Positions 1,697 to 5,994 of a stretch of 6,320 nucleotides of DNA are shown here, one piece after another (the stretch's first letter is position 1; each line of letters starts with the position of its first letter). The notes under the pieces are model-generated. The model was not told the origin of the DNA. It was given only the letters and a program-made list of their open reading frames with translations, and made no database searches. The stretch covers positions 1-6,320 of the forward strand of contig DAOVHI010000084.1 of assembly GCA_030671985.1 (NCBI GenBank), in the 5' to 3' direction. Source of the DNA: JAHJDO01 sp030671985 [NCBI: bacterium] (GTDB taxonomy: Bacteria > JAHJDO01). The translations under genes and the position numbers were made by a program.

Positions 1697-2080
1697 ATGA
1701 AGCTTACAGAAGAAGTTAAATTTGATAAAAACGGCTTGGTTCCTGCGATAATTCAGGATTTTAAGACCTTGGAAGTTCTCATGGTTGCGTATATGAATAA
1801 GGAGTCGCTGGAAACAACTCTTAAAACGGGGAAAGCATGTTTCTGGAGCAGGTCAAGACAGAAGTTGTGGATAAAAGGTGAGACGTCCGGACACATTCAG
1901 AAAGTAAAGGAGATTTTTGTAGACTGCGATAATGACACGCTTCTTATAAAAGCCGAGCAGATAGGCGGGGCATGTCATACAGGGTATAGAACCTGTTTTT
2001 ACAGGAAGCTCGATAAAGATGATTTTATAGTTGTAGGAAAGAAGTTCTTTGATCCGGGGAAAATTTATAAAAAAACTTAA
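1697..2080 (+). CDS. hisI: Phosphoribosyl-AMP cyclohydrolase HisI (single domain, no HisE)
   Basis: Cytoplasmic Zn/Mg enzyme that opens the adenine ring of PR-AMP to give ProFAR (EC 3.5.4.19). The 127 residues cover the complete cyclohydrolase domain: GLVPAIIQD (13-21), EVLMVAYMN (26-34), [15 protein letters not shown] (44-58), [11 protein letters not shown] (60-70), VDCDNDTLL (75-83) and [12 protein letters not shown] (90-101). Asp76, Asp78 and Asp80 are the Mg ligands; Cys77, Cys93 and Cys100 are the Zn ligands. No C-terminal PR-ATP pyrophosphatase (HisE) domain is present, so that activity must be encoded elsewhere. It starts 5 nt after hisA; the nearest SD-like GGAG (1683-1686, inside hisA) is 10 nt from the ATG. 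It ends in a TTAA shared with the convergent nagA-like gene, and no terminator is visible beyond it. Confidence 0.96.
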
Positions 2081-3363
2081 TCAGTTGAGAAAACAAGTCT
2101 TCCGTTCACTATTGTGTGTTCAACCTTGAAGTTATAACCGCCCTGCTCTTCGGAAATAGACCCAATGGTCAAATCGGCGGATTTGTCTTGTTCAATAACT
2201 CCTGTGGACTTTAACCCAAGCATATTACAGCTATTGGTGGCAAAGATTTTGGCCATGGATACGAGGGCTTCGTCAAAATCCAAAGCACAGTGTTTTCTTA
2301 TCCATATTCCTTTTATTTCCTGTGTCAGCCATGATAACAAATTAGAGAATGCCTTATCTGTTGTGAGCACACTTCCGAAGAGTGTATTTTCTTTTTTCTC
2401 AACAGCTAGGTAATCTCTATTGGAACTTACTGTGCCCTTGACCCCAAAAATTTCGAATTCTTTAATTTTGTTACTTCCTGTCAGGAACATAGAATCTGTT
2501 ACAGCAACAATTCTTGTGTTGGTTTTTCTGTTTATTGCGTCTCGAATATAGGCCGGGCTAACATGATATCCGTCTAAAATCAGTTCTGCATAAATTTCAT
2601 CATTTTTCAAAACAGCTTCAGCAGCGCCTCCTCCATTAAACGGTTTATAAGAAGTATTTGTAGGTCCATTCATAAAATGTATAAAATATTTTAATCCTGC
2701 CTTCATCGCTTCTTCAATCTGGAAACAAGTTGCTTTTGTATGACCTGCTCCAACCGCTATGTTATTTTTTGTTAGGTATTTAGTAAGCTTAATTGAGTCT
2801 TCGCCATATTCAGATACGATGTTTGCCAGTTTAATTGCGCCTGATTTGTTAATTTGATTAAATATCTTTATATCAGGTTTAAAGACATAAGTAGGGGACT
2901 GAGCTCCTAAAAAATCAGGGCTGATAAATGTGCCCTCAAGAAGTCCTCCGTGAATAAAAGACCCATTCAATCCATTTGATTTATTGTCGATAAATTTTTT
3001 GAGATAGCCAAAGGATCTTTGAAGATTTTTTATCGGAGCAGCAAATGTTCCTAAAAAGAGTGACGTTACGCCTTGTCCAGCCTTCTCCTGTGCAAGCATA
3101 GGTATTCCCTCAGAAAAAGCTTCTTCAGAGTCATCAAATGATCTTGTTTCCGGATTGTATTTGCCTAATGTAAAATCAAATAGATTGCAGCCGTGAAAAT
3201 GAATATCAACAAACCCTGGAAATATGTATTTTCCTTCAGCATTGATTGTCTTATCAGGAGACTTGTTTAGAGATTCAAAGGATATTTTGTCGTCCAACAA
3301 ATATAAATCGGTTTTTTCTATCCGGTCTTTAAGAACTACACTTCCATTTTCTATCTTTATCAT
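2077..3363 (-). CDS. nagA: NagA-type amidohydrolase (N-acetylglucosamine-6-phosphate deacetylase family), diverged
   Basis: Metal-dependent amidohydrolase of the NagA family; canonical members deacetylate GlcNAc-6-phosphate in amino-sugar recycling. Numbered from ATG 3363 (428 residues), the fold is complete: an N-terminal beta segment, [11 protein letters not shown] (His55, His57), LEGTF (Glu143), GAGHTKAT (His208), HFMNGP (His229), DGYHVSP (His267), VTDSM (catalytic Asp290) and a C-terminal segment ending [12 protein letters not shown] that closes the small domain. All metal and catalytic positions survive. Substrate-pocket motifs differ: HLEGP reads LLEGT, the (G)TH/(G)AH pair reads AQ, NAM reads NGP, and the phosphate-contacting Arg aligns with Lys240. 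Substrate assignment is therefore uncertain. A GTG at 3372 in the same frame would add three residues and overlap folE; ATG 3363 fits the family N-terminus ([10 protein letters not shown]) and sits 1 nt after the folE stop. There is no nagB nearby. Confidence 0.85.
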
Positions 3364-3364
3364 A

Positions 3365-3931
3365 TCAATCACTTTTAATAAGGCTTAGGGCTTCTGCGCG
3401 TGTTTTGCTGTTTTTTCTAAATATCCCTCTCACAGCGGAAGTGACTGTAACTGCTCCATGCTTTTTAACCCCTCTCATTGTCATACATAAATGTTCTGCT
3501 TCTATTAGAACAATAACACCTTGAGGCTTCAATACTTCCATGAGAGCATCAGCAATGTTCGTGGTTAATCTTTCCTGCAGCTGCGGTTTCTTGGCAAACA
3601 AATCAACAGCATGGACCAATGTATTGAGACCTATGACCCTGTTGTTTTTTGGAATATAGGCAACATGAGCCTTGCCTGTAAAGGGAAGGAAATGATGTTC
3701 GCACATTGAGGCAAAATAGATATCCTTTACAAGAACAATCTCATCGTATTCTGTCTCAATGGAGACTTTTAATTCCTTTTTGGGATCTTTATACAGTCCC
3801 GCAAATATTTCTTCATACATTTCCGCAATACGCTGCGGTGTTCTGATGAGCCCTTTTCTTTCCGGATCTTCTCCGACAGCTTCAAGAATTGTTTTTACTG
3901 CTTCAATGATTTTTTTATGATTTACTCTCAC
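3365..3931 (-). CDS. folE: GTP cyclohydrolase I, FolE type, with altered triphosphate pocket
   Basis: Homologue of the cytoplasmic, homodecameric enzyme that converts GTP to 7,8-dihydroneopterin triphosphate plus formate (EC 3.5.4.16), the entry to folate, tetrahydrobiopterin and queuosine-type pathways. The 188 residues match the short Bacillus-like form. Visible motifs are [20 protein letters not shown] (27-46), [20 protein letters not shown] (75-94), PQLQERLT (116-123, guanine-binding Glu120), [12 protein letters not shown] (144-155) and [10 protein letters not shown]. Zinc ligands Cys77, His80 and Cys149 and catalytic His79 and His147 are present, as is Arg153. Three usually basic positions differ: AKMY is AEMY (Glu37), and GLSKLAR is GLNTLVH (Thr104, His107). 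The start is GTG 3931, supported by AAGGAG 9 nt upstream. The gene lies 13 nt after ktrA and 1 nt before nagA. Family membership is certain; normal activity is not. Confidence 0.93.
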
Positions 3932-3940
3932 AATGAAAGT

Positions 3941-3946
3941 CTCCTT
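3941..3946 (-). promoter_or_regulatory. Ribosome binding site of folE overlapping the ktrA stop
   Basis: On the minus strand AAGGAG begins on the last two bases of the ktrA TAA (3947-3945) and lies 9 nt before the folE GTG at 3931-3929. It supports GTG as the folE start and shows that ktrA and folE are read from one message. Confidence 0.7.
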
Positions 3947-4616
3947 ATCTTGCTAATTTTTCAATATCACTGTTGCTTCCGACTACTACGAGTACATCAC
4001 TTTCTACAAAAATATGATTTGGATCCGGCACACTGTGAATTTTTTCTGTAGTCTTTCCATCTTGATCTACGCCATGTTCTTTGATCGCTACAACATTTAC
4101 TTTGAATTGGTCTCTTAGATGTAGATCCCGTAACTTTTTATGTAGGAAACTTGACGGAGTTTTAATTTGAACCAGACTATGACCGTTTGTGAGAGGAATG
4201 TAATCCAGGATGCTTGACATAAGCAGGTTTTGCGCAATTCTTTTTCCCATGTCATCTTCAGGTGAGACAATTCTATCGGCGCCAACCAGTTTTAATATTT
4301 GAGATTGTATATCGTTTGCAGCTCTGGCTATCACTTGCTTTACACCGAGTTTTTTTAGCAGGACAGTCGTAAGTAAATTTGCCTCAAAATTTTCACCGAT
4401 GCAAACCAATACACTATCAACTCTATTTATTCCCTGCGCAATTAAGTTCTCTTCAATGGAAGAATCCATTCTTACAGCCAATGTTACTCTATCCTTTATT
4501 GCTTCTACCTTTCTGGGATCTTTATCAACAGCGATCACCTCTGCATTTCTTTCTGCGAGTGTAACTGCAACTCTATAGCCAAACATCCCAAGTCCTATTA
4601 CTGCGAATTTTGTCAT
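3945..4616 (-). CDS. ktrA: Ktr potassium uptake regulatory subunit KtrA (RCK_N + RCK_C)
   Basis: Cytoplasmic subunit that forms an octameric ring under the KtrB channel and gates it in response to bound nucleotide (ATP/ADP, NAD(H)). The 223 residues are the usual size for a single-RCK KtrA, about half of the tandem TrkA. Residues 1-130 are a Rossmann RCK_N domain: [10 protein letters not shown] with GLGMFG at 8-13, acidic Asp31 ending the second strand (VIAVDKD), [11 protein letters not shown] (71-81), VIARA (95-99) and [13 protein letters not shown] (116-128). Residues about 135-223 form the RCK_C ligand-binding domain, with DVLVVVGSN near the end. The ATG at 4616 is preceded by AGAGGAG ending 7 nt upstream. 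It lies 16 nt after ktrB, the classical partner order, and 13 nt before folE. Confidence 0.94.
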
Positions 4617-4632: not shown

Positions 4633-5994
4633 TTATCCAAGAATCACTTCTTCTTCAGGGTATGCATATATAGCCCTTCTTCTCTTTCCTGTAACTGCCA
4701 GAGCCATAGCCAGAGGTCCGATCCTGCCAGTGAGCATTGTAATTGTAATTACCAATTTACCCGGCGTACTCAGGCTAGACGTTATTCCCCTTGAAAGACC
4801 TACTGTGCCAAAGGCAGACATTTCTTCAAACAAGATATCCATAAAACTAGCTTTTTCCGTAGTGAGCAATATTACAACACACACTGTAATAAACATAGCA
4901 GAAACAAAGATAATTCCAAATACTTTGTTTAAAGAATGCCTGGGTAAGCTTCTCTTGAATATCTCTATTCTTTGCCGACCCTGAATGAACGATCGCAAAC
5001 TCAATATTGCGATTCCAAATGTACTTGTTTTAATTCCGCCTCCTGTAGATCCTGGAGAGGCTCCTATGAACATAAGAATCATGAGAATAAGACAAGATAC
5101 ATTCGCTAGTCCGCAAACATTTATAGTATTAAACCCTGCGGTCCTCGCCGTTACAGACTGAAAATAAGATATCATCAACTTCTCTTTAATCGAATATGAA
5201 CATAACAAATTCTTGTTCTCAAAGAAGAATAGAATAAGTGTCCCGCTAATTATTAAGACAATACTAACAATTAGAACTAGTTTTGTATGAACTTTTAATC
5301 TGGCTGGTTTTTTTCTCAATTTAAGATTAACAACTTTAATGACGTCGGTAATTACTATAAAACCGAGTCCGCCCAATATAATTAAAGACGTAATTATAAG
5401 ATTGAAAGCACTGGACTTGTTATAGTGTGTGAAGCTGTTCTGAAACAAAGAAAATCCTGCATTGCAGAACGCAGAAACTGCGTGAAATACAGAAAAATAA
5501 AGAGTTTTCTTAACGCTTACAAAATCTTCTATCCAAAATAGATATAGTGATGTAGCTCCTATAAGCTCTATTGTGAATGTGATAAGAAGAATTGATACCA
5601 GCATATGACCTATTTTGTCAAGAGTCTCATAATTGAGAGTATCTCGCATAATCAGGCTTTCATTCAGACTCATATTTCTCAGAATAATAGAGAAAAAGCC
5701 AACCATAGTCATCAAGCCAAGCCCGCCGATTTGAATAAGAGTTAGAATAATGAGCTGGCCAAAAAGCGTAAAAGTATTTGATATGTTGACCACAGTAAGT
5801 CCTGTAACACATGTTGCTGAAGCAGCCGTAAACAAGGCGTTTACTATACTGAGGTTCATGCCTGGTTTTCTGGATTGGGGCAGTAGTAATAAAAGCGTTC
5901 CGATGCTAATGACTATAACAAAGCTTAAGACAACTATTTGTACAGGTTTCAGACCAAGTTTACCTATGGCTTTAAAGAAATTTTCTTTAAACAC
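4633..5994 (-). CDS. ktrB: Ktr/Trk-type potassium channel subunit KtrB
   Basis: Integral inner-membrane K+ translocating subunit of the SKT (Trk/Ktr/HKT) superfamily, partner of KtrA. The 453 residues match KtrB. Four M1-P-M2 units are visible, each with its pore-loop glycine: AASATCVTGL (Gly65), AVSAFCNAGF (Gly180), SVTARTAGFNT (Gly287) and EEMSAFGTVGL (Gly399). First hydrophobic helices include about 19-39 and 79-105. The Gly/Ser/Thr-rich stretch 311-328 (GASPGSTGGGIKTSTFGI) is the intramembrane gate loop of the third unit, and Arg424 in TMLTGRIGP is the conserved arginine of the fourth. The C-terminus YPEEEVILG is typical. The start is GTG 5994, the only usable codon after an in-frame stop; no Shine-Dalgarno precedes it and a 21-bp palindrome follows it directly. 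A 27-nt gap separates it from the small membrane-protein gene upstream. Confidence 0.95.
   Translation of the reverse strand: MFKENFFKAIGKLGLKPVQIVVLSFVIVISIGTLLLLLPQSRKPGMNLSIVNALFTAASATCVTGLTVVNISNTFTLFGQLIILTLIQIGGLGLMTMVGFFSIILRNMSLNESLIMRDTLNYETLDKIGHMLVSILLITFTIELIGATSLYLFWIEDFVSVKKTLYFSVFHAVSAFCNAGFSLFQNSFTHYNKSSAFNLIITSLIILGGLGFIVITDVIKVVNLKLRKKPARLKVHTKLVLIVSIVLIISGTLILFFFENKNLLCSYSIKEKLMISYFQSVTARTAGFNTINVCGLANVSCLILMILMFIGASPGSTGGGIKTSTFGIAILSLRSFIQGRQRIEIFKRSLPRHSLNKVFGIIFVSAMFITVCVVILLTTEKASFMDILFEEMSAFGTVGLSRGITSSLSTPGKLVITITMLTGRIGPLAMALAVTGKRRRAIYAYPEEEVILG
5971..5991. promoter_or_regulatory. 21-bp palindrome immediately after the ktrB start codon
   Basis: TTTAAAGAAA (5971-5980) and TTTCTTTAAA (5982-5991) are perfect 10-bp inverted arms around a single T. 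In the ktrB mRNA this begins on the base after the GTG and could form a 9-bp stem with a 3-nt loop. It could be an mRNA hairpin limiting initiation or a DNA operator. Its AT-richness makes the RNA stem weak, and chance from a Phe/Lys-rich N-terminus is possible. Confidence 0.4.

Follow-up and report, generated by a model that had tools for sequence, protein, structure and literature searches.

GTP cyclohydrolase I is a slow, well-studied enzyme that converts GTP to dihydroneopterin triphosphate, working as a decamer whose active sites are shared by three subunits. The window analysed here (the whole stretch of 6,320 nucleotides) contains a folE gene whose product lacks basic residues usual in this family at the place where the triphosphate is bound. 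The question is whether this protein is still a GTP cyclohydrolase I, and how it would hold its substrate. The genes concerned are as follows.

2077..3363, minus strand: nagA-like amidohydrolase gene, directly downstream of folE, named from Pfam and NCBIfam searches
3365..3931, minus strand: folE, GTP cyclohydrolase I, 188 amino acids, GTG start, TGA stop at 3367-3365
3945..4616, minus strand: trkA-like gene, directly upstream of folE, TrkA_N and TrkA_C above the Pfam cut-offs
4633..5994, minus strand: trkH-like potassium transporter gene, TIGR00933 340.2 against a cut-off of 331.15

The folE gene, its product and its neighbours

An AAGGAG sequence precedes the GTG start of folE. The product scores 249.3 bits with PF01227 (cut-off 27), 241.1 with TIGR00063 (cut-off 181.6) and 274.2 with NF006826 (cut-off 162). 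It falls below the cut-off of the related T-fold family QueF (TIGR03139, 23.1 versus 86.9 bits) and has no match at E 0.001 to PF02649, the family of FolE2 (GTP cyclohydrolase IB), which catalyzes the same reaction as FolE. Identity to FolE from Omnitrophota reaches 66%. The AlphaFold2 monomer model, built with 39 sequences, has a pLDDT of 92.0 and a pTM of 0.86. With VIA-align, its best matches among solved structures are FolE of M. tuberculosis (9p8z_A; Z 26.5, rmsd 1.4, 188 aligned residues, 55% identity) and FolE of L. monocytogenes (4uqf_A; Z 25.4, rmsd 1.4, 185 aligned residues, 58% identity). The subunit as modelled is a T-fold. The block of residues 151-160 has a lower value, 72, which fits the flexible loop of the human enzyme. 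Because the active site sits between subunits, the monomer model is silent on what replaces the missing Lys and Arg.

The source assembly (G000) represents an uncultured bacterium (1.25 Mb, 152 contigs, 92% complete). The phylum as sampled consists of five genomes (G000 to G004), all of one genus, and the host lineage is therefore either isolated or poorly sampled. FolE is present in four of the five genomes, one copy in each; the fifth genome is 62% complete. The three other FolE proteins of the genus are 92-94% identical to that of the window. The reading frame is intact in all four genomes and dN/dS between the folE genes is 0.036-0.13 (ratios from JC values); folE is under purifying selection.

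The order trkH-trkA-folE is conserved in all three loci from congeners. In G002 and G003, as in the window, folE is followed by the nagA-like gene; in G004 (L113) a hisI-like gene on the opposite strand stands directly after folE, with no nagA-like gene between. For the nagA-like gene of the window, the ATG at 3363 is a more plausible start than the GTG listed at 3372; the nagA-like proteins of L112 and L114 begin alike. This amidohydrolase is divergent (TIGR00221, 148.5 bits versus a cut-off of 225.65), and all NCBIfam TrkA models score under their cut-offs with the trkA-like product. There was no Rfam match anywhere in the window at gathering scores. Promoter-like sites (10, versus 13.9 with sd 4.0 in shuffles) and terminator-like sites (4, versus 3.1 with sd 1.8) are both within the shuffled range.

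Residues around the triphosphate of GTP

A preliminary description of this DNA, made from the sequence alone, reported that the zinc-binding, catalytic and guanine-binding residues of this FolE are intact, and that three triphosphate-binding basic residues are replaced, by Glu37, Thr104 and His107. It proposed a less phosphorylated or different substrate, or binding of GTP by another route. The codons that matter here are as follows.

3473..3475, minus strand: Arg153, phosphate contact, equivalent to E. coli Arg185, T. thermophilus Arg183 and human Arg216
3611..3625, minus strand: Asn-Thr-Leu-Val-His (residues 103-107), in place of the usual Ser-Lys-x-x-Arg of FolE
3821..3823, minus strand: Glu37, in a variable column
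3830..3832, minus strand: Arg34, phosphate contact, equivalent to T. thermophilus Arg64

Re-reading of the translation confirmed Cys77, His79, His80, Glu120, His147 and Cys149, and the minus strand carries GAA, ACA and CAT for Glu37, Thr104 and His107, as reported. The E. coli equivalents named for these three were borne out as well, by aligning the protein with 1fbx, which is numbered without the initiator Met. Glu37, Asn103, Thr104, His107 and Arg153 correspond to E. coli Lys68 (which we take to be a triphosphate contact), Ser135, Lys136, Arg139 and Arg185. Asn103, which the preliminary description overlooked, replaces a nearly invariant Ser.

In PMC4005822, the phosphate contacts listed for the T. 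thermophilus enzyme are Lys134, Arg137, Arg183 and Arg64; none of these four falls in the E. coli Lys68 column. By alignment, these four are positions 104, 107, 153 and 34 of the window protein. Thus two of the four published contacts are replaced (Thr104 and His107) and two are kept (Arg153 and Arg34). According to PMC7750480, the beta and gamma phosphates are coordinated by human Arg216, the residue aligned with Arg153, which sits in a loop (213-222) that becomes ordered upon substrate binding.

The rarity of these residues was assessed over 258 loci, 239 of which gave a FolE open reading frame; the remaining 19 cover different genes. With the window included and the typed E. coli row omitted, they yield 235 distinct core FolE, a non-random sample with a few partial sequences. 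They were drawn from the 80 nearest loci, further loci from family searches and 100 additionally fetched places, and one of these sources covers only the matches listed. Not among them are the places listed for G167, G225 and G346 and, from one of the family searches, the matches that were given no locus, other than the second of G051. The residues in the four columns among the 235 FolE are as follows.

Column 37: E 68, R 60, K 55, D 23, N 9, Q 8, A 7, S 2, T 2, G 1
Column 103: S 228, N 4, G 2, D 1 (outside the genus, 231 FolE: S 228, G 2, D 1)
Column 104: K 223, T 4, S 2, A 2, N 2, E 1, R 1
Column 107: R 223, H 4, K 4, E 2, Q 1, T 1

Positions 104 and 107 are thus unusual, as the preliminary description had it, and position 37 is ordinary: Glu is the commonest residue in a variable column (68 of 235), and Glu37 was rejected as part of the anomaly. 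The combination Asn103, Thr104 and His107 occurs in the window and its three congeners and in none of the 231 other FolE. By comparison, the zinc ligands and catalytic histidines (Cys77, His79, His80, His147 and Cys149), the guanine-binding Gln119 and Glu120, and both Arg34 and Arg153 are identical in all 231.

Sharing of the same residues by many related organisms had been named in advance as the sign of an ordinary lineage variant. Such sharing is complete among the four FolE-bearing genomes of the genus and absent from the 231 other FolE. In G004 (L113), Thr104 and His107 are encoded by ACG and CAC instead of the ACA and CAT of the window. Since all four genomes share the trio, with synonymous third-base changes in one of them, it is no sequencing slip. 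Ser57, Tyr72 and Asn125 are also restricted to the genus (each 0/231 elsewhere), and His158 nearly so (1/231). Possible compensating residues were sought as positions basic in all four FolE of the genus and in less than 25% of the others. Lys26, Lys48, His158 and Lys173 were found; among them only His158 (K, R or H in 2.2% elsewhere) lies in the loop after Arg153.

Loss of a basic residue at this site is not confined to the genus. A non-basic residue stands at 104 in 11 and at 107 in 8 of the 235 FolE, four of each from the window's genus, and 14 FolE have no basic residue at 104, at 107 or at both. Outside the genus, Lys104 is lost in seven FolE (L008, L025, L030, L084, L086, L097 and L245, with N, S, A or E), and Arg107 is replaced by E, Q or T in four. 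The family seems tolerant of such loss, because 10 other distinct FolE, all known from sequence alone, lack one or both residues. On these alignments, the usual GLSK..R sub-motif, which the window protein departs from with Thr104 and His107, is common in FolE and not defining. The seven FolE without Lys104, three of which carry Gly-Phe-Ser before the position, would be useful natural comparisons.

Both basic residues are gone in five FolE, the four of the genus and L025 from G005 (motif GFSNLVE, 58% identity to the window protein). L025 differs from the window protein in keeping the Ser and in carrying Asn at 104 and Glu at 107. The genome of L025 (59% complete) also differs from those of the window's genus, in that it gave a match to FolB and none to PTPS. 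A tree made by a quick method from 88 of the 235 rows (the 75 closest plus those that depart from S-K-R) places L025 beside L084 and apart from the genus. The five double-loss rows require two changes on this tree, and a single origin is compatible with the starred branches. The nine single-loss rows require eight changes, of which the starred branches force only three. The stem of the genus is long (0.58 changes per column), and the tree does not settle its placement.

Viral FolE was considered as a source of the variant and rejected, as Lys and Arg are kept in each of the 19 viral loci spanning the site (of 20 in the set, in which two pairs are alike over the stretches compared). As a separate observation, the Glu of the CEHH motif, invariant in the 231 FolE outside the genus, is Ala, Asn, Ser or Cys in nine of these 19 loci (L304-L312), in which the Cys and both His are kept. 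No paper describing the variant of the window was found in a literature search, which had most subscription journals outside its reach.

Folate and queuosine genes of the genus

The search for a second, canonical folE, suggested by the preliminary description, found none: G000 has one FolE, and each of the four FolE-bearing genomes of the genus, among the five searched, has only one. FolE2 (PF02649) and FolB have no match in any of the five genomes. PTPS was found in four of the five, FolK in four, and Pterin_bind and QueC in all five. In G000, the folate models for DHPS (311.5 versus 162.6) and folK (139.8 versus 54.1) and the queuosine models for QueD (95.4 versus 89.25), QueC (199 versus 150.3) and QueF-II (169.3 versus 86.9) are passed. 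A QueE-like protein is under both of its model cut-offs (252.8 versus 300; 231 versus 260.1), and the PTPS is under that of TIGR00039 (93.4 versus 125.5). The queE-like gene, queC and queF adjoin one another in locus L292. In G004, folK was matched as two overlapping pieces in different frames (L122 and L123; G004:C40:21686-22073), which is a frameshift or an assembly error.

QueD uses the triphosphate made by FolE. The PTPS gene of interest is the following.

L116, 1489-1860, minus strand: candidate PTPS-I/III hybrid with the motif CENLHGH

CENLHGH is present in all four PTPS of the genus (L115, L116, L117 and L118). As described in PMC5041015, CExxHGH is the signature of PTPS-I/III hybrids, able to serve folate and queuosine synthesis, and for some archaeal PTPS-III the substrate may be the monophosphate. 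With no FolB match in any of the five genomes and a CENLHGH PTPS in four, the genus probably makes folate through a bypass of FolB. Its folate and preQ1 routes would both start from the triphosphate product of FolE, which suggests that this FolE does the usual job. Because of the possible monophosphate use by archaeal PTPS-III, this pathway argument leans mostly on the queuosine branch.

The idea that the basic residues are lost along with a switch from FolB to PTPS was rejected, since the trend runs the opposite way. In handpicked genomes, several of them related and some incomplete, FolB was found in 6 of the 10 deviant genomes outside the genus (a non-basic residue at 104, at 107 or at both), versus 5 of 34 with a canonical FolE; for PTPS the figures are 3 of 10 and 29 of 34. 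PTPS loci were read for 30 of the 32 matches. CE precedes HGH in 29 of them, the exception being L279 with CSQL; by genome type, it does so in 26 of 27 loci from canonical genomes and in all three from deviant ones (L267, L270 and L283). With CE-HGH so usual beside a canonical FolE, the PTPS motif offers no explanation of the change in FolE.

Readings of the changed site

It is highly likely that the window protein is the cell's working, GTP-using GTP cyclohydrolase I, with a remodelled triphosphate corner. The sequence, its fixation in the congeners sampled, the purifying selection, the single cyclohydrolase found and the pathway genes are observed; from them we infer its activity, GTP as its substrate and the residues that take over the lost contacts. 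In the genus, the Lys and Arg of GLSK..R have been replaced by Thr and His, and the preceding Ser by Asn. The main grip on the phosphates would come from the invariant Arg34 and Arg153. Thr104, Asn103 and His107 would assist, perhaps together with the genus-specific His158 after Arg153. Two lost positive charges are not fully made good by Thr, Asn and His, so GTP may be bound with low affinity. The earlier idea that GTP is bound by another route is thus best read in this mild form, as binding by the remaining arginines with Thr, Asn and His. In fold, zinc ligands, catalytic histidines, Gln-Glu, Arg34 and Arg153, the protein is the same as FolE (GCYH-IA); it differs in having Asn-Thr-Leu-Val-His for Ser-Lys-x-x-Arg and in Ser57, Tyr72, Asn125 and His158, unique or nearly unique to the genus. 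The variant is a lineage-specific form of a known enzyme, and its annotation stays folE.

Plain drift, a special case of this explanation, would mean a GTP-active enzyme for which positions 104 and 107 matter little and no compensating contacts evolved. Replacement of Lys104 in seven FolE and of Arg107 in four outside the genus speaks for it, as do the eight changes among single-loss rows, though so few of these are forced. That the congeners keep Asn-Thr-His exactly, with a synonymous divergence that reaches 0.83, speaks against it and suggests that the new residues are selected. Drift is possible but less likely than not.

A changed phosphate specificity is unlikely. On this reading the enzyme would accept GMP, GDP or a further guanine nucleotide, with a less phosphorylated dihydroneopterin passing to the PTPS branch. 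An equally improbable wording combines a substrate with fewer phosphates, or GTP held by a new set of His, Thr, Asn and Tyr, with a PTPS adapted to the changed product. The loss of half the published phosphate contacts next to a changed Ser, the residues peculiar to the genus, the lack of FolB matches and, for the folate branch, the possible monophosphate use reported in PMC5041015 are consistent with such a change. Against it, Arg34 is kept together with Arg153, the counterpart of the residue that coordinates the beta and gamma phosphates in the human enzyme (PMC7750480). QueD, QueC and QueF are present, the first a user of the triphosphate. In the handpicked genomes of other lineages, moreover, the residue change is unlinked to the FolB-less state. 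With a sole FolE found, genes present for two pathways that draw on the triphosphate product, and both arginines kept, the less phosphorylated or different substrate proposed earlier finds little support. Even less credible is a FolE that has decayed or moonlights and no longer acts as a cyclohydrolase. The loss of usually conserved residues and the long stem of the genus in the FolE tree would fit decay, whereas the low dN/dS, the frame intact in four genomes and the intact catalytic residues argue against it, and no alternative entry enzyme was found for the folate and preQ1 genes.

If the remodelled enzyme is as active as usual, two of the listed phosphate contacts would be dispensable while Arg34 and Arg153 remain, which would narrow what GTP cyclohydrolase I essentially needs. 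If instead its nucleotide preference has changed, the genus would have an unusual route into pterin synthesis.
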